Assembly (NCBI GenBank): GCA_028823415.1
Contig: JAPKBL010000002.1
Location: 1-64,000, forward strand
DNA from: Mariniblastus sp.
GTDB taxonomy: Bacteria; Planctomycetota; Planctomycetia; Pirellulales; Pirellulaceae
Length of the DNA stretch: 64,000 nucleotides
Reading direction: 5' to 3'
How positions within the stretch are numbered: position 1 is the stretch's first letter; every line of letters starts with the position of its first letter. Positions 5,650 to 64,000 of this stretch are shown here, piece after piece. A model generated the notes under the pieces. It did no database searches and was not told the origin of the DNA. It saw nothing but the letters and a program-made list of their open reading frames with translations. Both the position numbers and the translations under genes were made by a program.

Positions 5650-8600
5650 CTAACTCAATTGTGCCGCAAATGCGTCGTCAACGATTTTGAATAAACCACT
5701 GAATTCCGCTCGGTTATTGCCGTCGACTGTTTTTCCAGTTTCCGAATCTTCTTTTCCGCTGAACAGATCATCACTTAAAGTACCCTCCCAGAAACGATCC
5801 AGCGGCTCGGAATTCAACCGATGAGCATTGGCAAGACTATTGATGTTCTTGCCGGAGTTCGACGATTCCTGAGAGAACAATGGTGTCTTGGCGGTAGTGA
5901 AGGATGGCTGGAACGATTTCGAAAATCCGTCGACGTTACTTCCAAGCAATGGCGTGAAGTTACCGGACATGAACGCTGAAGTTCCGACCGGTTGAGTACT
6001 GAAGAACATTTGGTCAATGCTCACCGTGTCTCGAACGGAATTGCCAGATGTAGCGGGGTCGGTGTCAACGACTTTCACAATGATATCGCCCGAGATGGCT
6101 GAATTAAGGTTTACCGAATAGGTTGCAAATTGTCCGCTGTTTACCACCACTAGGTCGTTCCAGCTAGTTCCGCCATCTTCCGAGTAAGAGAATGCAAAGT
6201 CATCCCCTTCGGTGTTATTACTTCGTGCGGCGTCCACATGGAAACTGACGGCTCCGCCGACACCATTGAACGTCCAGCGGTGATCCATCAGGGTTACCTT
6301 ATTACGGCCCTTACCCTCTCGTTTTTCTTCAATTGTTTCAACGACATTGTCATCCCCCGAGGTTTGAAGGAAACTGTTTTGAATGATCGTTCCCTTGAGG
6401 GTGTTTTCCGAGCTTGCATAAGTGTAAGGCGGAATGTCGTCATCCGAAATGGTGACTGTTGCAGCGTCGCTTGAGCCGACCTGATAGTCATAGGATGCAT
6501 CTTCAATCAAGGTGAGAACAACCGTTTCCGCTCCCTCCGAAGCCGTATCGTCAATCGGGTTTACCGTGATGGAGATGGAGTTAGAGCCCGCAGGTATTAC
6601 AGCGGTTCCCGACAGTGGTGAGTAATCGGCACCGGAGGTTGCTGACCCTCCAACACTGTAAAAGACCGTCATGTCACTTGTCGTGGTCTCTCTTGATATG
6701 GTGAATTCTCCAGAGTTTCCTACGTTCTCTACCGCATTGGGATCAGTTGCGATTACTGAAACTGTTTCTCGTAGATCTGACGGTGCGGTCTCAAAATACA
6801 TAAGATCGATTACGATTGAATCGAGATTGGGACTTGATTTTCTATTGGCCGGTGTGCGGTCAGTGTCAATGACACGAACAAGCACATCCCCCGTGATCGA
6901 TAGATTTTCGGCGGTAATGGTTTGATAGGGGGATGTTTGGCTGATGGTTCCTAGCGAGGTCCAATTACTGCCATTATCAATGGAATACTCAAAATTGAAA
7001 TTGTCATCGGCATTATTCGATTGATAGGCATCAACGCTAAATGCATTGGCACCGTCGAGGCCCGGAAACGACCAGCGGTACTCAAGGGCACTTCCGAGTT
7101 TAGTTTTTCTACCGGGGTCGACGTCAATTTCTACTTCAGAGAGCGTCTGTTGGCCCGCGTCACTTTGGTGTGTGTCAACAATCGAACCATCGATGGTAGC
7201 GCCGACGATGAGACCACCAGTGTAGTTGATGTCAGCGTAGGCCCGAACAATGGCCGGTATGACCGCTACGGTTACCGTTGCTAGGTCTGTTGCTCCGTCG
7301 TTGTCACCGACGAGATAGGTAAATGAATCGGAACCATTGTAACTCGGATTGGGAGTGTAAATAACTTGATCGCCATCGATCGTTGCAGTGCCGTTTGTTG
7401 GAATGGATACCTCAATAATCGACAGGACATCTCCTGCATCAACATCGGAATCGTTGGCCAGTACGCCAATCGTCGTTGGAATGCCAGTCGAAGTCGAGCC
7501 ACCGTCATCAGCGGCAACAGGCGCGTCATTCACAGGAGTTACCACTATGGACACGGTCGCTGTATCAGTGCCGTTTTTGCCATCGCTAATCGAGTATGTA
7601 AATGATTCGGTTCCATTGAAGTTGAGCAGTGGCGTATACGTAATGTCGGTCCCGTTGTTGATTACGACTCCCGAGCCTCCGTATGCGACCGCCGTGATTG
7701 TCAATGAATCCCCGTCGCCGTCGGTGTCATTTCCGAGGACGTTAAAGGTCATTGCCCCCGGATCTTCCGAAACCGTTTCGTTGTCGTCATTGGCAACCGG
7801 ACTCAGGTTCACTTCATTAACGGTGACCGTTACCATTGCCGAATCGGTTAAATCACCATCGCTCGCCGTGTAACTGAACGAATCGCCTCCAACGAATCCA
7901 GTGGTCGGGGTATAGGTAACCGTTCCGTCACCATTGTCAACGACGGCGCCATTGGCGGGTTGGTTAACAGAATCGACGGTCAATGAATCCCCATCGACGT
8001 CGCTGTCATTTGAAATCACATTAATTAAGACGGCAGTGTCTTGGTTGGTGACCGAGGCGTCATCGGCAGCTACGGGATTATCGTTTACCGCATTGACCGT
8101 GATGGCAACTGAGGCGGTGTCGGTGTTTCCGTTTCCATCATTGATGGTGTAATTGAATGAATCGCTACCGTTAAAGTTAGCATCGGGTGTATAGGTCAAA
8201 ACACCGTTGTTGGCCGATACCGATCCGTTGGATGGGTTGGTGAAAGACTGAACCGAGAGCGTGTCATTCTCAGGGTCGGTATCATTCTGAAGCACGTTTA
8301 TCGCAACGAATGAATCCTCGTCGACGGTTGCCGTATCATTCGCGGCTACCGGAGGGGAGTTCGTTGAACTGGTGATCGCCGTCATCGCGAGTCCCAAGTC
8401 AAGCACACCATTGGTCACAAGATTGAGATGGTCTGCCCGCGTGTTATTGAGAATTGCGTCTTTGATTTCGAGATAAGACATGTCGGGCCGCTCAGCCCAC
8501 AGCAAAGCGGCGGCGCCGGCAACATGTGGCGAAGCCATTGATGTTCCCGAAAGGTAAACGTAGCCGTCGTTCGTATAGGTACTCGCAATTGAGGTTCCCG

Positions 8601-9756
8601 GTGCAGCAATTTGAACCGATTCATCTCCCCAGTGTGAGTAAGTGGCGAATGCTCCGCCTTCGTCGATTGCTGCGACGGTGATTACATTGTCGTGTACTTT
8701 ACTATACTCAGCCGGCCAGGAATTAAAGCTCCCGTCCATGTCGGAAGCTGGAATTCCGGTTCGCGAATTACCCGCGGCAACAATATAAAGCACACCAGCA
8801 TCCTTGGCGCGGCCAATCGCCGCGGACATGACACTGCTGCCTCCGACATTGGTTCCCGCATAGCCGTAACTATTGTTGGTGATCTTCGCCCCGTTGTCCG
8901 TTGCGTAATCAATCGCTCGTGCGACATCGGCGTTGCTGCCATTTCCAATGACTTTGAGCGACATTAGGCTCGCATCCCAGCCAACTCCGGCGACACCAAT
9001 TGAGTTATTTCCTTGAGCTCCAATGGTTCCCGCGACGTGGGTTCCGTGCCCATTGTCGTCCATGGGATCACTGTCGTCGTTGTCGAAGTCGTAGCCGTAG
9101 AAGTCATCGACGTAGCCGTTGTTGTCGTCGTCGATGCCGTTGCCAGCGATCTCACCGCTGTTCGTCCAGATGTTGGGTTGGAGATCAGGGTGGTCATACT
9201 GAACGCCACTGTCGATCACGCCAACAATGATCGAAGAACTGTCAGTTCTTGTATCCCAGGCCGATTCGGCGTTGATGTTCGGCGGCCCCCACTGAACCCC
9301 CCCGTAGTACTGGTCATTGGGAACGGCGGTGGATTCCATTAAGTAGTTTGGTTCGGCAAAATCGACGGCGTCGAGTGAGTTGTAGTAATCAATGAGATCC
9401 GGAATGCTTTGGCCTGCGATGACTGGAATCTCAAAGAGCTGACCGTCAGCACGAAATCCTTCCCCGAGCGATGCTGAGAGAATCGCATTGTGATTCATCA
9501 TTTCGACGTAGTTCGTTTTTTGAAGCTCGTCAACGGAGACATCGTCTTGGAAACGGACGAGGATTTCGGTGCTCGAATAATCGGACGGCGCGAGTTGGCT
9601 AAAATCGACAGTGTAGGTCGCCAGTAAATTTCTTTGTTCTAAAATCTCGTAGGCGTCACCAACTGAAAGTTTTGAATTGCCCTGCCGTTTACGCTTAAAG
9701 GTTTGCTTAGAAAAACTACGGCGAGGCTTGCCGGATGAGCGAGATTTTTTTTTCAT
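5650..9756 (-). CDS. Giant secreted subtilase (S8) with cadherin-like and Calx-beta repeats
   Basis: About 1368 residues from the ATG at 9756, chosen because it opens with the basic MKKKSRSSGKPRR leader; a further in-frame ATG is at 9798. A basic N-terminus leads to YEILEQRNLLATY, a variant of the LE.R.LLA motif found at the start of large planctomycete extracellular proteins. A peptidase S8 domain follows with D182 (VIDSGVQ), H237 (GHGTHVAG) and S406 (SGTSMASPH), preceded by an inhibitor-like propeptide. Next come about four Ig/cadherin-like repeats of the VDEDSFVAINVLQNDTD type, a jelly-roll-like stretch, and a Calx-beta domain (GGSATSGADYSPLSGTAVI). It probably degrades extracellular protein. 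The 5' 1.8 kb is apparently identical to the paralogue at 10.9-14.5 kb. Confidence 0.9.
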   Translation of the reverse strand: MKKKSRSSGKPRRSFSKQTFKRKRQGNSKLSVGDAYEILEQRNLLATYTVDFSQLAPSDYSSTEILVRFQDDVSVDELQKTNYVEMMNHNAILSASLGEGFRADGQLFEIPVIAGQSIPDLIDYYNSLDAVDFAEPNYLMESTAVPNDQYYGGVQWGPPNINAESAWDTRTDSSSIIVGVIDSGVQYDHPDLQPNIWTNSGEIAGNGIDDDNNGYVDDFYGYDFDNDDSDPMDDNGHGTHVAGTIGAQGNNSIGVAGVGWDASLMSLKVIGNGSNADVARAIDYATDNGAKITNNSYGYAGTNVGGSSVMSAAIGRAKDAGVLYIVAAGNSRTGIPASDMDGSFNSWPAEYSKVHDNVITVAAIDEGGAFATYSHWGDESVQIAAPGTSIASTYTNDGYVYLSGTSMASPHVAGAAALLWAERPDMSYLEIKDAILNNTRADHLNLVTNGVLDLGLAMTAITSSTNSPPVAANDTATVDEDSFVAINVLQNDTDPENDTLSVQSFTNPSNGSVSANNGVLTYTPDANFNGSDSFNYTINDGNGNTDTASVAITVNAVNDNPVAADDASVTNQDTAVLINVISNDSDVDGDSLTVDSVNQPANGAVVDNGDGTVTYTPTTGFVGGDSFSYTASDGDLTDSAMVTVTVNEVNLSPVANDDNETVSEDPGAMTFNVLGNDTDGDGDSLTITAVAYGGSGVVINNGTDITYTPLLNFNGTESFTYSISDGKNGTDTATVSIVVTPVNDAPVAADDGGSTSTGIPTTIGVLANDSDVDAGDVLSIIEVSIPTNGTATIDGDQVIYTPNPSYNGSDSFTYLVGDNDGATDLATVTVAVIPAIVRAYADINYTGGLIVGATIDGSIVDTHQSDAGQQTLSEVEIDVDPGRKTKLGSALEYRWSFPGLDGANAFSVDAYQSNNADDNFNFEYSIDNGSNWTSLGTISQTSPYQTITAENLSITGDVLVRVIDTDRTPANRKSSPNLDSIVIDLMYFETAPSDLRETVSVIATDPNAVENVGNSGEFTISRETTTSDMTVFYSVGGSATSGADYSPLSGTAVIPAGSNSISITVNPIDDTASEGAETVVLTLIEDASYDYQVGSSDAATVTISDDDIPPYTYASSENTLKGTIIQNSFLQTSGDDNVVETIEEKREGKGRNKVTLMDHRWTFNGVGGAVSFHVDAARSNNTEGDDFAFSYSEDGGTSWNDLVVVNSGQFATYSVNLNSAISGDIIVKVVDTDPATSGNSVRDTVSIDQMFFSTQPVGTSAFMSGNFTPLLGSNVDGFSKSFQPSFTTAKTPLFSQESSNSGKNINSLANAHRLNSEPLDRFWEGTLSDDLFSGKEDSETGKTVDGNNRAEFSGLFKIVDDAFAAQLS
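7905..9684. repeat. Direct repeat copy A (1.78 kb), inside subtilase 1
   Basis: From 7905 to 9684 the sequence matches 12700-14479 at a constant offset of 4795 bases, with no difference seen wherever I compared it. Similarity continues at lower identity to about 7840. The block covers the conserved N-terminal motif, the whole S8 domain and the first two cadherin-like repeats of both proteins. It breaks sharply at the shared codons for KQGNSKL. Confidence 0.92.
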
Positions 9757-10049
9757 TGAGATTCCAAGAGTTGTGGAAAAGGCTAAACGTTGGACCATGT
9801 TTAGCGAGGGTCTACCAAACTAGCGACAAGGAAATCTGAATTCAAGCGAAAATCAGAATAAAGCACGCTTAATCCAGAATAGGGATCAGTGGGGAATGAA
9901 ATCAACGCTGAAATGTCGTTTTTGTCGACATCGTGAATGATCTTCCGTTTCGTCTGCGATTAATCATCCCTCGCGAATGAGTGATTAAAGTAGGATTCGC
10001 ACGGCGAATTCAGATTAAAAACCTTCGACGGGCGTTCCTTCGTCCGTAC

Positions 10050-10852: not shown

Positions 10853-13800
10853 TTAAATTCCCCATGTGCCTGTGGGGCTGAGGCGCCCCAGTTCGGCAAA
10901 GAATTTATCGGCAGTTGAAAGTTTGTCATTTCCTTCGGAGCTTTCTTGTCCGGCGGTCAAGATCTCTCCGAGATCATCTGATCCATTAAGAAATTCGTAG
11001 GCCGTATTTTCGGTAGCGTAACCCGTAGGTGTTGCTGAGTTCCATTTTTGAGAATTGGTATCTTCAACTCGCGTCAACGCTGAATTGGATGACACTGAAT
11101 CGCCCGACACTTGATACGACGTGAAATGAAAAGCATCCAGTCCTGCTCCGGCAAGCTGTTGAGCGTAGGTTGGACTGCTGGCGAGTCCCGACATCGAGCC
11201 ACTCGCTTGACCAGCCATGAAGGACGGCGTGTTGGCGACTAGAACTCCAGCCTCCATTGCCAATACGCCTGCGATTTCAGTGGTGTGGTTCAGTTCGTTG
11301 TCTTTGGACTTCTCTTCTTCAACCCAAACGGTGACGCTGGTGCTAGTTTGAGACCGATGTCTCAGCGAAGCTGCGTCACCGCCATCACGCGTTTGCATGT
11401 CTGACAAAATAACAGGGGCGGCTGCGCCACCAATGTCTCCAAAATTGACGGTGGTATTTTGGTGGGTGACCGTATTGCCAGTGACGACCGCATTGAGAGT
11501 TGTATCGCCAGAAACCGCAGCTCCCTGATCAATAGCGATATAGCCGACTGTTTCGGTTCCGTGAACACCATCGGCAATTTCTTCTTCGTTGAATTGAATC
11601 TTGAAATTCGAATTGGTTACCGAGCGAATCCGTTCGACAACCGCAGCTTCATCGTTGTTAGTCATGGCCTGAGCGATGATTAACGGGGTTCCAGTGAAAC
11701 TGTCACCAAACGAAATGGTTTTGGTTGCTTCGTTGGTGAGCGTGGTTGTGCCGGCGACGAGTTGAGTGCCATCGGTTAATGTATGAGTGCCAGCTTCGAC
11801 GACCATGTAGCCCATGTTTTCGGTCGTGTGATTTCCATCTCGATAATCCCACTCCTGGAATCGAATTTGGAAACTGTTGGAGGTGACGTTTCGCACTCGA
11901 ACAATTCCTTGGTGCCCGCCATCGCGAGTTGAGCCACCGGCAACCACTACTGGGTTGGTAAAGCTAACCGGTAGATTGATGGTTTTCCAAACGTGGGTCA
12001 CATCAATCGCGGTGCCGGAGAATCCGATTTCTGTCGTGCCTCCGCCGACCTCGTTGACCGTGATCTGAACGGTTGCCGAATCGGTCAATGAACCATCAGT
12101 GACATCATAGGTAAACGAATCACTTCCAAAGAATCCTGCATCTGGAGCGTAGGTGATGGTTCCATCGCCATTGTCCGTGACTAGGCCGTTGGCAGGCTGG
12201 GTTACCGAATCAATGGTCAGCGTATCTCCATCGATGTCGGAGTCATTGCTGACGAGATCTACAATGACGGGAACGTCTTGGTCGGTAGAACCGGCATCGT
12301 TGTTCGCGATCGGGTTGTCATTAACTGCATTGATCGTGACAAAGACGGTTGCGGTGTCGGTGTTGCCATTGCCGTCATTGATCGTGTAGTTGAATGAATC
12401 GGTTCCATTAAAGTTGGCATCGGGTGTGTAGATCAAAATATCATTGTTTTGAGTGACCGTGCCGTTGGAGGCTTGACCGAAAGAGTCAATCGCGAGTGTG
12501 TCGCCGTTGACATCGTCATCATTGTCAAGCACCGGAACGCTGACTTGTGAGTCTTCATTGACAGTCGCGTTGTCGTTGTTAGCAACCGGTGGGTCATCTT
12601 CTACCACTTCATTGACCGTGACCGAAACATTTGCAGAATCGGTTAAATCACCATCGCTCGCCGTGTAACTGAACGAATCGACTCCAAAAAATCCAGCGCT
12701 CGGGGTATAGGTAACCGTTCCGTCACCATTGTCAACGACGGCGCCATTGGCGGGTTGGTTAACAGAATCGACGGTCAATGAATCCCCATCGACGTCGCTG
12801 TCATTTGAAATCACATTAATTAAGACGGCAGTGTCTTGGTTGGTGACCGAGGCGTCATCGGCAGCTACGGGATTATCGTTTACCGCATTGACCGTGATGG
12901 CAACTGAGGCGGTGTCGGTGTTTCCGTTTCCATCATTGATGGTGTAATTGAATGAATCGCTACCGTTAAAGTTAGCATCGGGTGTATAGGTCAAAACACC
13001 GTTGTTGGCCGATACCGATCCGTTGGATGGGTTGGTGAAAGACTGAACCGAGAGCGTGTCATTCTCAGGGTCGGTATCATTCTGAAGCACGTTTATCGCA
13101 ACGAATGAATCCTCGTCGACGGTTGCCGTATCATTCGCGGCTACCGGAGGGGAGTTCGTTGAACTGGTGATCGCCGTCATCGCGAGTCCCAAGTCAAGCA
13201 CACCATTGGTCACAAGATTGAGATGGTCTGCCCGCGTGTTATTGAGAATTGCGTCTTTGATTTCGAGATAAGACATGTCGGGCCGCTCAGCCCACAGCAA
13301 AGCGGCGGCGCCGGCAACATGTGGCGAAGCCATTGATGTTCCCGAAAGGTAAACGTAGCCGTCGTTCGTATAGGTACTCGCAATTGAGGTTCCCGGTGCA
13401 GCAATTTGAACCGATTCATCTCCCCAGTGTGAGTAAGTGGCGAATGCTCCGCCTTCGTCGATTGCTGCGACGGTGATTACATTGTCGTGTACTTTACTAT
13501 ACTCAGCCGGCCAGGAATTAAAGCTCCCGTCCATGTCGGAAGCTGGAATTCCGGTTCGCGAATTACCCGCGGCAACAATATAAAGCACACCAGCATCCTT
13601 GGCGCGGCCAATCGCCGCGGACATGACACTGCTGCCTCCGACATTGGTTCCCGCATAGCCGTAACTATTGTTGGTGATCTTCGCCCCGTTGTCCGTTGCG
13701 TAATCAATCGCTCGTGCGACATCGGCGTTGCTGCCATTTCCAATGACTTTGAGCGACATTAGGCTCGCATCCCAGCCAACTCCGGCGACACCAATTGAGT

Positions 13801-14512
13801 TATTTCCTTGAGCTCCAATGGTTCCCGCGACGTGGGTTCCGTGCCCATTGTCGTCCATGGGATCACTGTCGTCGTTGTCGAAGTCGTAGCCGTAGAAGTC
13901 ATCGACGTAGCCGTTGTTGTCGTCGTCGATGCCGTTGCCAGCGATCTCACCGCTGTTCGTCCAGATGTTGGGTTGGAGATCAGGGTGGTCATACTGAACG
14001 CCACTGTCGATCACGCCAACAATGATCGAAGAACTGTCAGTTCTTGTATCCCAGGCCGATTCGGCGTTGATGTTCGGCGGCCCCCACTGAACCCCCCCGT
14101 AGTACTGGTCATTGGGAACGGCGGTGGATTCCATTAAGTAGTTTGGTTCGGCAAAATCGACGGCGTCGAGTGAGTTGTAGTAATCAATGAGATCCGGAAT
14201 GCTTTGGCCTGCGATGACTGGAATCTCAAAGAGCTGACCGTCAGCACGAAATCCTTCCCCGAGCGATGCTGAGAGAATCGCATTGTGATTCATCATTTCG
14301 ACGTAGTTCGTTTTTTGAAGCTCGTCAACGGAGACATCGTCTTGGAAACGGACGAGGATTTCGGTGCTCGAATAATCGGACGGCGCGAGTTGGCTAAAAT
14401 CGACAGTGTAGGTCGCCAGTAAATTTCTTTGTTCTAAAATCTCGTAGGCGTCACCAACTGAAAGTTTTGAATTGCCCTGTTTACGTCGGTTCAGTCGTTT
14501 GCCTAGCTTCAT
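10853..14512 (-). CDS. Giant secreted subtilase (S8) with cadherin-like and H-type-lectin-like repeats
   Basis: A 1219-residue paralogue of the protein at 5.6-9.8 kb. The N-terminus MKLGKRLNRRKQGNS differs, then the two are the same through the LEQRNLLA motif, the S8 domain (catalytic D169, H224, S393) and two cadherin-like repeats. Two further repeats diverge. The C-terminal part is different: three copies of a domain with VRNVTSNSFQIRFQEW, HTTENMGYMVVEAGTH and similar strings, resembling H-type lectin-like modules found in marine bacterial secreted proteins, then a tail with a SPTGTWGI end. The shared catalytic part with exchanged C-terminal binding modules suggests two proteases aimed at different surfaces; this is inference. 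Confidence 0.9.
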   Translation of the reverse strand: MKLGKRLNRRKQGNSKLSVGDAYEILEQRNLLATYTVDFSQLAPSDYSSTEILVRFQDDVSVDELQKTNYVEMMNHNAILSASLGEGFRADGQLFEIPVIAGQSIPDLIDYYNSLDAVDFAEPNYLMESTAVPNDQYYGGVQWGPPNINAESAWDTRTDSSSIIVGVIDSGVQYDHPDLQPNIWTNSGEIAGNGIDDDNNGYVDDFYGYDFDNDDSDPMDDNGHGTHVAGTIGAQGNNSIGVAGVGWDASLMSLKVIGNGSNADVARAIDYATDNGAKITNNSYGYAGTNVGGSSVMSAAIGRAKDAGVLYIVAAGNSRTGIPASDMDGSFNSWPAEYSKVHDNVITVAAIDEGGAFATYSHWGDESVQIAAPGTSIASTYTNDGYVYLSGTSMASPHVAGAAALLWAERPDMSYLEIKDAILNNTRADHLNLVTNGVLDLGLAMTAITSSTNSPPVAANDTATVDEDSFVAINVLQNDTDPENDTLSVQSFTNPSNGSVSANNGVLTYTPDANFNGSDSFNYTINDGNGNTDTASVAITVNAVNDNPVAADDASVTNQDTAVLINVISNDSDVDGDSLTVDSVNQPANGAVVDNGDGTVTYTPSAGFFGVDSFSYTASDGDLTDSANVSVTVNEVVEDDPPVANNDNATVNEDSQVSVPVLDNDDDVNGDTLAIDSFGQASNGTVTQNNDILIYTPDANFNGTDSFNYTINDGNGNTDTATVFVTINAVNDNPIANNDAGSTDQDVPVIVDLVSNDSDIDGDTLTIDSVTQPANGLVTDNGDGTITYAPDAGFFGSDSFTYDVTDGSLTDSATVQITVNEVGGGTTEIGFSGTAIDVTHVWKTINLPVSFTNPVVVAGGSTRDGGHQGIVRVRNVTSNSFQIRFQEWDYRDGNHTTENMGYMVVEAGTHTLTDGTQLVAGTTTLTNEATKTISFGDSFTGTPLIIAQAMTNNDEAAVVERIRSVTNSNFKIQFNEEEIADGVHGTETVGYIAIDQGAAVSGDTTLNAVVTGNTVTHQNTTVNFGDIGGAAAPVILSDMQTRDGGDAASLRHRSQTSTSVTVWVEEEKSKDNELNHTTEIAGVLAMEAGVLVANTPSFMAGQASGSMSGLASSPTYAQQLAGAGLDAFHFTSYQVSGDSVSSNSALTRVEDTNSQKWNSATPTGYATENTAYEFLNGSDDLGEILTAGQESSEGNDKLSTADKFFAELGRLSPTGTWGI
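12700..14479. repeat. Direct repeat copy B (1.78 kb), inside subtilase 2
   Basis: Partner of 7905-9684, in the same orientation with a 4795-base offset. The absence of visible synonymous differences over 1.78 kb points to very recent duplication or ongoing gene conversion. Recombination between the copies would delete the 2OG oxygenase. Confidence 0.92.
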
Positions 14513-62975: not shown

Positions 62976-64000
62976 ATGAAAACAGTTTGGATACTAAACA
63001 CTTGTGTCGTTGTGATCGCGCTGGTTGGTATGACGGGTTGTGCTGATCCGGAACCAGAAGTGGTTCGCACGTCTGATTCAGCCTTAAGTTCTGAGCGAGA
63101 GCCATCGGCTTCCCGTGAACCCATGCCGCCGGAAACTCGCCCTGCAGTGGTCGAGGACCGAGACTCGCGCGATAGGGAATCGGTTGACCGCGATCGATCA
63201 AACTCAGAATCTGTAGATTCGCGTCGTTCTGAATCGAGGGATTCCCAACCTATGAATCCCGACCGCGGTGCGGGACCGTTGCCTGGCATAAAGCCGCCTG
63301 GCGGAAATAATCTTAATGGTGCTTCGTCGGGGATCGACATGGCGGGTCGAGACAATGCGTCTCGAAATCCGGGTGCCCCCCGTCAACCGGAAGCGAATCG
63401 CCAGCCCCCACCGAGGGAGTACAAGTTAGAGTTCGTTGCAGCCACCGGGGCGAAGGGATTAGAAGTCGGCGATACCATTCCAGAAGTGAGTGGAAAGGAT
63501 CTAGATAATATTAAATTCAAGCTCTCGGATTACCAAGGCAAAGTAGTGATGCTTGATTTCTGGGGGGATTGGTGACCGCCTTGCCGTGCGATGTACGGAC
63601 ACGAGCGGTCGCTCGTCGAGGGGATGACAGGACGTCCTTTTGTTTTGTTGGGGGTCAACAGCGATAAGGAAAAATCAACAGCCCAGGATGCCGTCAAAGA
63701 TAATAATTTGAATTGGCGGAGTTGGTGGGACAAGAGCACGCAAGGTGACATTTCATCTAGTTTTCAAATCCGCGGGTGGCCAACAATATTTTTGATTGAC
63801 CACGAGGGAGTTATTCAGGCTAAAAACTTGCGCGGGGGTCAGTTAGATACGGCAATTGAGCAATTGGTTTCTCGTGCTGAAGGTGACGGAGCCGCGGGAG
63901 GGCCGTTCGTCAGTGAGTGGCGCACGTTTGAAGATTCACAAGGGAAATTTCAGGTTGAGGCTCGGTTGATCGGAATGGACGGTGGCGAGGTAATCCTGTT
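62976..64000 (+). CDS. Candidate selenoprotein: TlpA/thioredoxin-like lipoprotein with Sec200 (UxxC), SHD1 domain; 3' partial
   Basis: From the ATG at 62976 a lipoprotein signal (VIALVGMTGC) leads into an Arg/Ser/Asp-rich linker, then a thioredoxin fold: VGDTIPEVSGKDLDNIKF, VVMLDFWGDW, a TGA at 63573-63575, then PPCRAMYGHERSLVEG. The TGA stands exactly at the first Cys of the W-C-x-x-C active site, giving WUPPC (Sec200, Cys203). The frame then stays open past the window end and encodes the rest of the fold (LLGVNSDKEKSTAQDAVKDN, IRGWPTIFLIDHEGVI) and the start of an SHD1-like domain (RTFEDSQGKFQVEARLIGMD). A GGTC-loop hairpin follows 31 nt after the TGA. Probably a periplasmic disulfide oxidoreductase. 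Stopping at the TGA would remove the catalytic site. Confidence 0.88.
63601..63616 (+). promoter_or_regulatory. SECIS-like hairpin downstream of in-frame TGA
   Basis: ACGAGC (63601-63606) pairs perfectly with GCTCGT (63611-63616) around the loop GGTC, which starts 31 nt after the TGA. A GGUC core in the apical loop is the feature SelB recognises in the E. coli fdhF SECIS element. Confidence 0.75.

Follow-up and report, generated by a model that had tools for sequence, protein, structure and literature searches.

Near the end of the 64,000-nucleotide stretch of Mariniblastus sp. DNA analyzed here (positions 1 to 64,000 of contig JAPKBL010000002.1; hereafter, the window) lies a gene whose otherwise open frame, translated from the window, is interrupted by one in-frame TGA (Table 1). 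The host contig, C147 in our numbering, belongs to a draft genome of 5.45 Mb in 265 contigs that is 92.72% complete, and in the contig the frame is closed by the TAG at 64110-64112, so that the protein has 378 residues and the TGA falls at residue 200. The motif at the TGA is W-U-P-P-C, the codon taking the place of the first Cys. A sequence-only reading of the window had drawn attention to this codon, describing a TGA at the first active-site Cys of a thioredoxin-like protein with DFWGDW before it and PPCR after it, a frame open for more than 140 codons beyond, and a hairpin with a GGTC loop 31 nt downstream; we find the codon in that setting, 141 further codons to the window end, and a loop that starts at 63607, exactly where that reading had it. 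The same reading held that ordinary annotation would cut the gene short of its catalytic site, and a mechanical ORF caller does split it at the TGA, into a 203-residue ORF up to that codon and a 173-residue ORF from the ATG at 63591. Elsewhere in the window, two long minus-strand genes (5650-9798 and 10853-14512) have in common a segment of about 1.6 kb without a single difference (about 7800-9600 and 12600-14400, offset 4795 bases), which points to duplication or gene conversion in the very recent past, or else to an assembly artefact.

Table 1. Features of the predicted selenoprotein gene at the end of the window
Feature	Position	Strand	Basis
Putative TlpA/ResA-like selenoprotein gene (378 aa)	62976..64000, on in contig to 64112, stop TAG	+	translation; Pfam; PDB relatives
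Lipoprotein-type signal sequence (putative), Cys22 in ...LVGMTGC	62976..63041	+	translation; [AT]GC in orthologues
Low-complexity Ser/Arg/Asp/Pro-rich linker, predicted disordered	63042..63422	+	pLDDT
Thioredoxin-fold domain, query for homologue search	63423..63881	+	pLDDT; Foldseek
TGA, predicted Sec200, first residue of U-P-P-C motif	63573..63575	+	translation; homologue alignment
Putative SECIS hairpin ACGAGC-GGTC-GCTCGT	63601..63616, loop 63607-63610	+	sequence; conservation; folding
SHD1-like region, weak	63906..64000, runs past window end	+	profile score below cut-off

The thioredoxin-like fold that had been proposed is recovered by profile, model and structural comparison alike. Residues 164-285 of the read-through protein match the Pfam families AhpC-TSA (2.3e-19) and Redoxin (1.8e-16), both above their curated cut-offs, and an AlphaFold model built from an alignment of 24 rows, with Cys substituted for Sec, gives block pLDDT values of 91-98 for residues 151-300 (whole-protein mean 69.6) and places Sec200 directly before the helix 201-216. 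The top Foldseek match is the ResA-type structure 4nmu (TM-score 0.88 over the target), and the sequence relatives in the PDB include 2lrn (6.6e-18), ResA 1st9 (5.9e-11) and TlpA 1jfu (1.1e-9), together with DsbE types. When 377 of the 378 residues were given to NCBIfam, no model reached its cut-off, the ResA model scoring 70.8 against 170; judged by such scores, the protein is not assigned to ResA, TlpA or DsbE proper, and "TlpA-like" is meant here as a fold class only. Ahead of this domain the linker is modeled as disordered (ten-residue-block mean pLDDT 44-54, residues 21 to 130), and behind it SHD1 scores 21.8 bits against a cut-off of 23.7 in the truncated frame. The signal sequence ends in GMTGC, which by eye we take to be a putative lipobox; [AT]GC at this position is common to the window gene and six orthologues, and the motif suggests that the protein is probably exported and lipid-anchored.

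Homologues were sought by protein, with the hairpin ignored, using a query peptide that contains HERSLV; the search covered 199 genomes from the same family. A match at 1e-15 was obtained in 138 of the 199, and loci were taken from the matches listed, leaving out G160:C124, the partial match G110:C6:3-218 and most lower-scoring non-TGA rows. At all 119 aligned sites in the resulting 110 loci, a count in which some places appear twice in two overlapping loci, the codon for the first Cys of CxxC is TGA (93), TGC (13) or TGT (13), and no other in-frame stop falls within the aligned stretches. With identical copies removed, 84 distinct TGA sites stand beside 26 TGC/TGT sites, so the Cys-bearing relatives anticipated by the sequence-only reading exist; one is a paralogue in the window's own genome (contig C10, L063). 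Sixteen added loci bring the distinct sites to 99 TGA and 26 Cys, a count that is not blind to the hairpin, because these loci were partly picked for carrying it.

The window gene and its six orthologues, 89.5-93.5% identical over the domain and drawn from seven separate genomes, have TGA in every case. Among six of the seven genes (L025 was left out because of Ns), pN/pS is 0.03-0.13 over the 178 codons downstream of the TGA as against 0.17-0.32 upstream, and is lower after the TGA than before it in 15 of 15 pairs: strong purifying selection acts after the TGA. A tree of the family with 188 rows (153 U, 26 C and 9 UU, omitting L156 for its frame breaks and L162 as a chance hit) requires at least nine changes of state; with 87 out of 185 inner branches unresolved, we draw no direction of change between Cys and Sec.

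Downstream of the TGA, the hairpin consists of an uninterrupted 6-bp stem closed by the 4-nt loop GGUC, 31 nt after the TGA. It agrees in these respects with the bacterial SECIS model as set out in the legend to Figure 2A of PMC13188914, namely a loop of 3-9 nt with G in its first two positions and a stem of 4-16 bp lying 16-37 nt from the UGA, with a minimum free energy of -7.5 kcal/mol or lower; the stretch from +24 to +47 (counted from the T of the TGA) reaches -8.5 kcal/mol. By itself this model discriminates poorly, because a stem of at least 4 bp in SECIS position is present at 12 of the 26 Cys sites as well as at all 84 TGA sites. Stricter measures separate the two groups: at least 5 bp in 82 TGA sites versus 4 Cys sites, at least 6 bp in 81 versus 1, a GC-rich stem of at least 6 bp in 79 versus 0, and passage of the energy limit in 79 versus 0.

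As free RNA, the bare 63-nt stretch adopts a different pairing as its minimum-energy fold (z-score -1.60). The window's hairpin belongs to the minimum-energy fold of +3 to +47, +12 to +47, +21 to +47 and +24 to +47, and is absent from that of +15 to +49; among the 84 TGA sites, the hairpin appears in 46 when 0 to +59 is folded and in 74 when folding starts at +15 and runs to +59. With a ribosome at the UGA, the first bases would be occupied, and the hairpin could thereby become free to form. Searched with the window stretch, Rfam had no match up to an E of 5; for six loci it gave three sub-gathering matches elsewhere, none at the hairpin.

What is chiefly new is how the hairpin has been kept. 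Exactly ACGAGCGGTCGCTCGT stands at +28 to +43 in 72 of the 84 distinct TGA sites, and it is found at +28 in none of the 26 distinct Cys sites. Measured against its maximum, codon entropy among the TGA sites falls to 0 for codons +10 to +12, is 0.10 at +9 and 0.04 at +13, and returns to 0.95 at the adjoining Val codon +14, where all four codons are in use. Among TGA sites with the commonest residue, His-Glu-Arg-Ser-Leu at +9 to +13 is written CAC in 81 of 82, GAG in 84 of 84, CGG in 83 of 83, TCG in 77 of 77 and CTC in 83 of 84. The 26 Cys sites have entropies of 0.75-0.87 over the same five codons, with mostly Glu, not Ser, at +12. Such a freeze does not come from recent spread, because the synonymous sites adjoining the hairpin are scrambled: codons -10 to +8 have entropies of 0.73-0.99, except +4 (Arg, 0.36) and +7 (Tyr, 0.44). 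At these two codons there is a milder bias that the hairpin does not explain, Arg being CGG in 61 of 76 and Tyr TAC in 69 of 76.

In the enlarged set the exact 16-mer occurs in 83 of the 99 distinct TGA sites. The 16 that deviate comprise six orthologues with a GGAC loop, one with the loop AGUU (L117), six with one pair lost (L039, L133 and L277-L280), one with a broken pair (L091) and two in which G-U keeps the pairing (L047 and L104). The stem varies too little for a covariation test to be applicable. Selection at the RNA level has kept the hairpin almost unchanged, base for base, in paralogues and in two phyla, and that constraint accounts at least in part for the conservation of the peptide HERSLV.

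How closely the hairpin is tied to the gene family can be seen from its distribution. In the window's genome, the pattern of TGA, 25 arbitrary bases and hairpin has two exact matches and one with a single mismatch (contigs C147, C174 and C2), all of them family members; two three-mismatch matches lie outside the family, one overlapping the C174 hairpin on the opposite strand, and the controls gave 0. Across the 199 genomes the bare 16-mer has 90 matches (6 in the control), and 89 of these exact copies sit 28 nt after the TGA of the motif. A looser pattern, with the outer pair dropped and A or T allowed in the loop, has 95 matches in 43 of the 199 genomes, with at most five copies per genome, whereas its reversed control has 2; in each of the matches listed, inspection by eye found the second active-site codon to be TGC, TGT or TGA. 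The two patterns have 89 places in common, since the six extra matches of the looser one are the GGAC-loop orthologues. The only exact hairpin of the 90 that has no TGA at -28 is at positions 991-1006 of L265 (G044:C10:8990-9005), a decayed UxxU-like copy with two TGAs at other spacing that still shows U...U and WPHERSLV; no thioredoxin frame was found upstream of its hairpin. SelB, at an E of 1e-60, is present in 40 of the 43 genomes with the looser pattern and in 54 of the other 156 (p = 1.3e-12, a value that ignores relatedness); the three pattern genomes in which it was missing at this threshold, G024, G063 and G095, are 78-84% complete.

In a collection of named genomes, the exact 19-base pattern occurs in at least 118 stretches, where about 2 would be expected by chance under equal base frequencies. 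The pattern requires both the TGA and the hairpin, and its matches alone therefore support neither. Eighty-two matches in 80 loci, of those at least 118, were read: 74 are single-Sec members, 7 have a double TGA and 1 is a chance match (L162), so that 81 of the 82 belong to the family. By database label, the 79 family loci among the matches listed comprise 60 from Planctomycetota, 12 from Verrucomicrobiota and 7 from other or unassigned groups, these last perhaps from mislabeled bins; viral contigs had no exact match to the pattern. The contention of the sequence-only reading that a codon and hairpin so placed go beyond chance is upheld by the restriction of 119 sites to TGA, TGC and TGT, by a hairpin nearly without synonymous variation, and by this excess of matches.

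In some members both Cys codons of the CxxC motif are TGA, in the forms U-L-T-U, U-P-T-U and U-L-G-U (L156, L161, L180, L190, L200, L222 and L223, plus L268, L269, L271, L273 and L274). They have a single hairpin, which follows the first TGA by 28 nt and the second by 19 nt, and in the tree nine distinct members group together (SH-aLRT 61). In two UxxU copies, L156 and L269, the frame is broken shortly after the hairpin, by an assembly slip or in a pseudogene.

The sequence-only reading had proposed a search of the genome for the sel genes, and three of the four components were found: SelB (368.9 bits against a cut-off of 242.25), a tRNA-Sec with anticodon TCA (67.4 bits against 47) and SelD (262.9 bits against 125). 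SelA was not found in the window's own assembly, which is 92.7% complete. It is present in 11 of the 13 genomes of the genus (the window's among the 13), and the selA region of G100 with its neighboring genes, in a search run without a positive control, had no match in this assembly; for these reasons we read the missing SelA as probably an assembly gap, and SelA is the weakest link in the machinery. A SelA-free route to Sec-tRNA was considered and dropped, given the ordinary SelA of those 11 genomes. The SelD (L020 96-2318) forms the C-terminal part of a 740-residue protein whose N-terminal part resembles an FAD/NAD oxidoreductase, and by eye it has Cys where many SelD proteins carry Sec; PMC2398784 describes a fusion of Ndh and SelD that has CxxC. 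SelB, tRNA-Sec and SelD in the genome, a conserved TGA and an RNA-constrained hairpin together indicate that the selenocysteine interpretation put forward from the sequence is very probably correct.

Several other accounts of the TGA can be weighed against this one. Because the TGA stands in the orthologues and purifying selection acts after it, we take the gene to be neither a pseudogene nor the product of a sequencing slip. A nonsense mutation in an ordinary Cys-containing TlpA-like gene, followed by an accidental hairpin, would fit a TGA that alone truncates the protein ahead of its active site; yet TGA occupies this position in seven genomes of the genus and in 84 of 110 distinct homologous sites, with no stop elsewhere in the aligned stretches, strong purifying selection downstream and a hairpin frozen at synonymous positions, and a pseudogene is exceedingly improbable. 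A draft as fragmented as this one, at 265 contigs, might harbor a misread TGC or TGT, but with the TGA repeated in seven separate genomes an error of sequencing or assembly is scarcely conceivable. It is also very unlikely that two proteins are made, a truncated lipoprotein ending at the TGA and, by re-initiation at the ATG at 63591, 15 bases on, a domain without the active site. The 173-residue ORF from that ATG to 64112 is indeed called mechanically, and some termination at UGA normally accompanies Sec decoding, for which PMC4513850 gives 30-40% recoding in vivo. However, the sequence flanking the TGA on either side, along with the C of PPC, is conserved as a single domain, the Cys homologues read straight through, and the ATG encodes Met206, inside the fold.

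A changed code or a suppressor, inserting Cys or Trp at UGA, has in its favor only that the UGA appears to be read through. TGA terminates 9 of the 30 open stretches longer than 250 codons in the window (both strands, some of them spurious), the genome holds tRNA-Sec, SelB and SelD, and Trp would be unfit at a position that is otherwise Cys; we regard this explanation as extremely unlikely. There is hardly more reason to believe that the 16-mer, near-palindromic and nearly invariant as it is, is a protein-binding palindrome or mobile repeat in the DNA with no role in decoding. With 89 of 90 exact copies 28 nt after the motif TGA, and the remaining one in the decayed UxxU-like copy, the 16-mer is tied to the TGA codon, as a free DNA element would not be.

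We are thus highly confident, as far as comparison of sequences can take us, that the gene encodes a selenocysteine thiol-disulfide oxidoreductase of the TlpA/ResA type in which Sec replaces the nucleophilic Cys, and that the hairpin is its SECIS. By analogy with the E. coli mechanism, SelB carrying Sec-tRNA-Sec(UCA) would bind the hairpin at 63601-63616, and Sec would be delivered to the UGA at 63573 in place of termination. In the U-P-P-C site, modeled just before the helix, Sec200 would attack and Cys203 resolve. The mature protein would be exported and probably lipid-anchored, and we expect it to act at the cell surface or in the periplasm, where it would reduce small disulfides or the oxidized thiols of proteins. 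More speculatively, we suggest that in Planctomycetota and Verrucomicrobiota one sequence-frozen 16-nt SECIS could serve an expanded family of exported Sec-thioredoxins, as if SelB had specialized on it, unlike the varied SECIS elements reported from bacteria, and that a single hairpin could serve both UGAs, three codons apart, of the UxxU members; this broader proposal is plausible, and we put its chances at somewhat less than even.

ResA, TlpA and DsbE, the oxidoreductases with the closest solved structures, carry CxxC; the present protein has U in place of the first C and, in addition, an SHD1-like region at its C terminus. SECIS elements of the E. coli fdhF type have a GGUC loop and a bulged U in the stem; the apical GGUC is common to both, whereas the hairpin described here has no bulged U and forms an uninterrupted 6-bp helix. 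The domain cd02966 is the TlpA-like domain. A thiol-disulfide isomerase-like UxxC selenoprotein with this domain appears in Table 1 of PMC13188914, and the same family, with 4 sequences, is listed by the Sargasso Sea study (PMC1088965, Table 3); as far as these tables describe it, that family is likewise a computational prediction of the same fold class with Sec first in UxxC. Table 1 of PMC13188914 further names PF00578 with UxxC or UxxU, PF08534 Redoxin with UxxC, and a UGC-containing TlpA. In the accessible portion of the Global Ocean Sampling study (PMC2398784), Trx-like 1 (COG0526; 321 sequences) and Prx-like 1 (pfam00578; 225 sequences), likewise thioredoxin- or peroxiredoxin-like with Sec in UxxC, are among the commonest marine selenoproteins, while UxxU sits in a different family, Prx-like 2; that portion contains no mention of "planctomyc" and nothing on conservation of the hairpin sequence. 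The Porphyra-associated planctomycetes P1 and P2 also possess Sec machinery and selenoprotein genes, of which PMC4807772 discusses fdhA and fmdB, and the candidate list given there may include members of this UxxC family. Sec-containing thioredoxin-like UxxC proteins are already known and this protein adds to them, a further case of a known kind in view of the families in PMC13188914 and PMC2398784.

The gene itself is of less interest than its frozen signal and the overlooked expansion of the family. No SECIS so nearly invariant among paralogues and in two phyla was found in the literature searched, mostly non-subscription, and a near-identical hairpin in dozens of genes of two phyla seems unusual for bacteria, the yardstick being a sentence in a review and not a measured second family. 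Because a mechanical ORF call splits the gene at its active site, this expanded redox group, with as many as five copies of the pattern in a single genome of the 199, is probably largely invisible; the hairpin and TGA can serve as a search pattern for the family. If it is true that SelB reads one fixed hairpin in these organisms, the family would be a good system for the study of SelB-SECIS recognition and of why other bacteria tolerate variety, and its double-Sec members would test whether one SECIS serves two UGAs.
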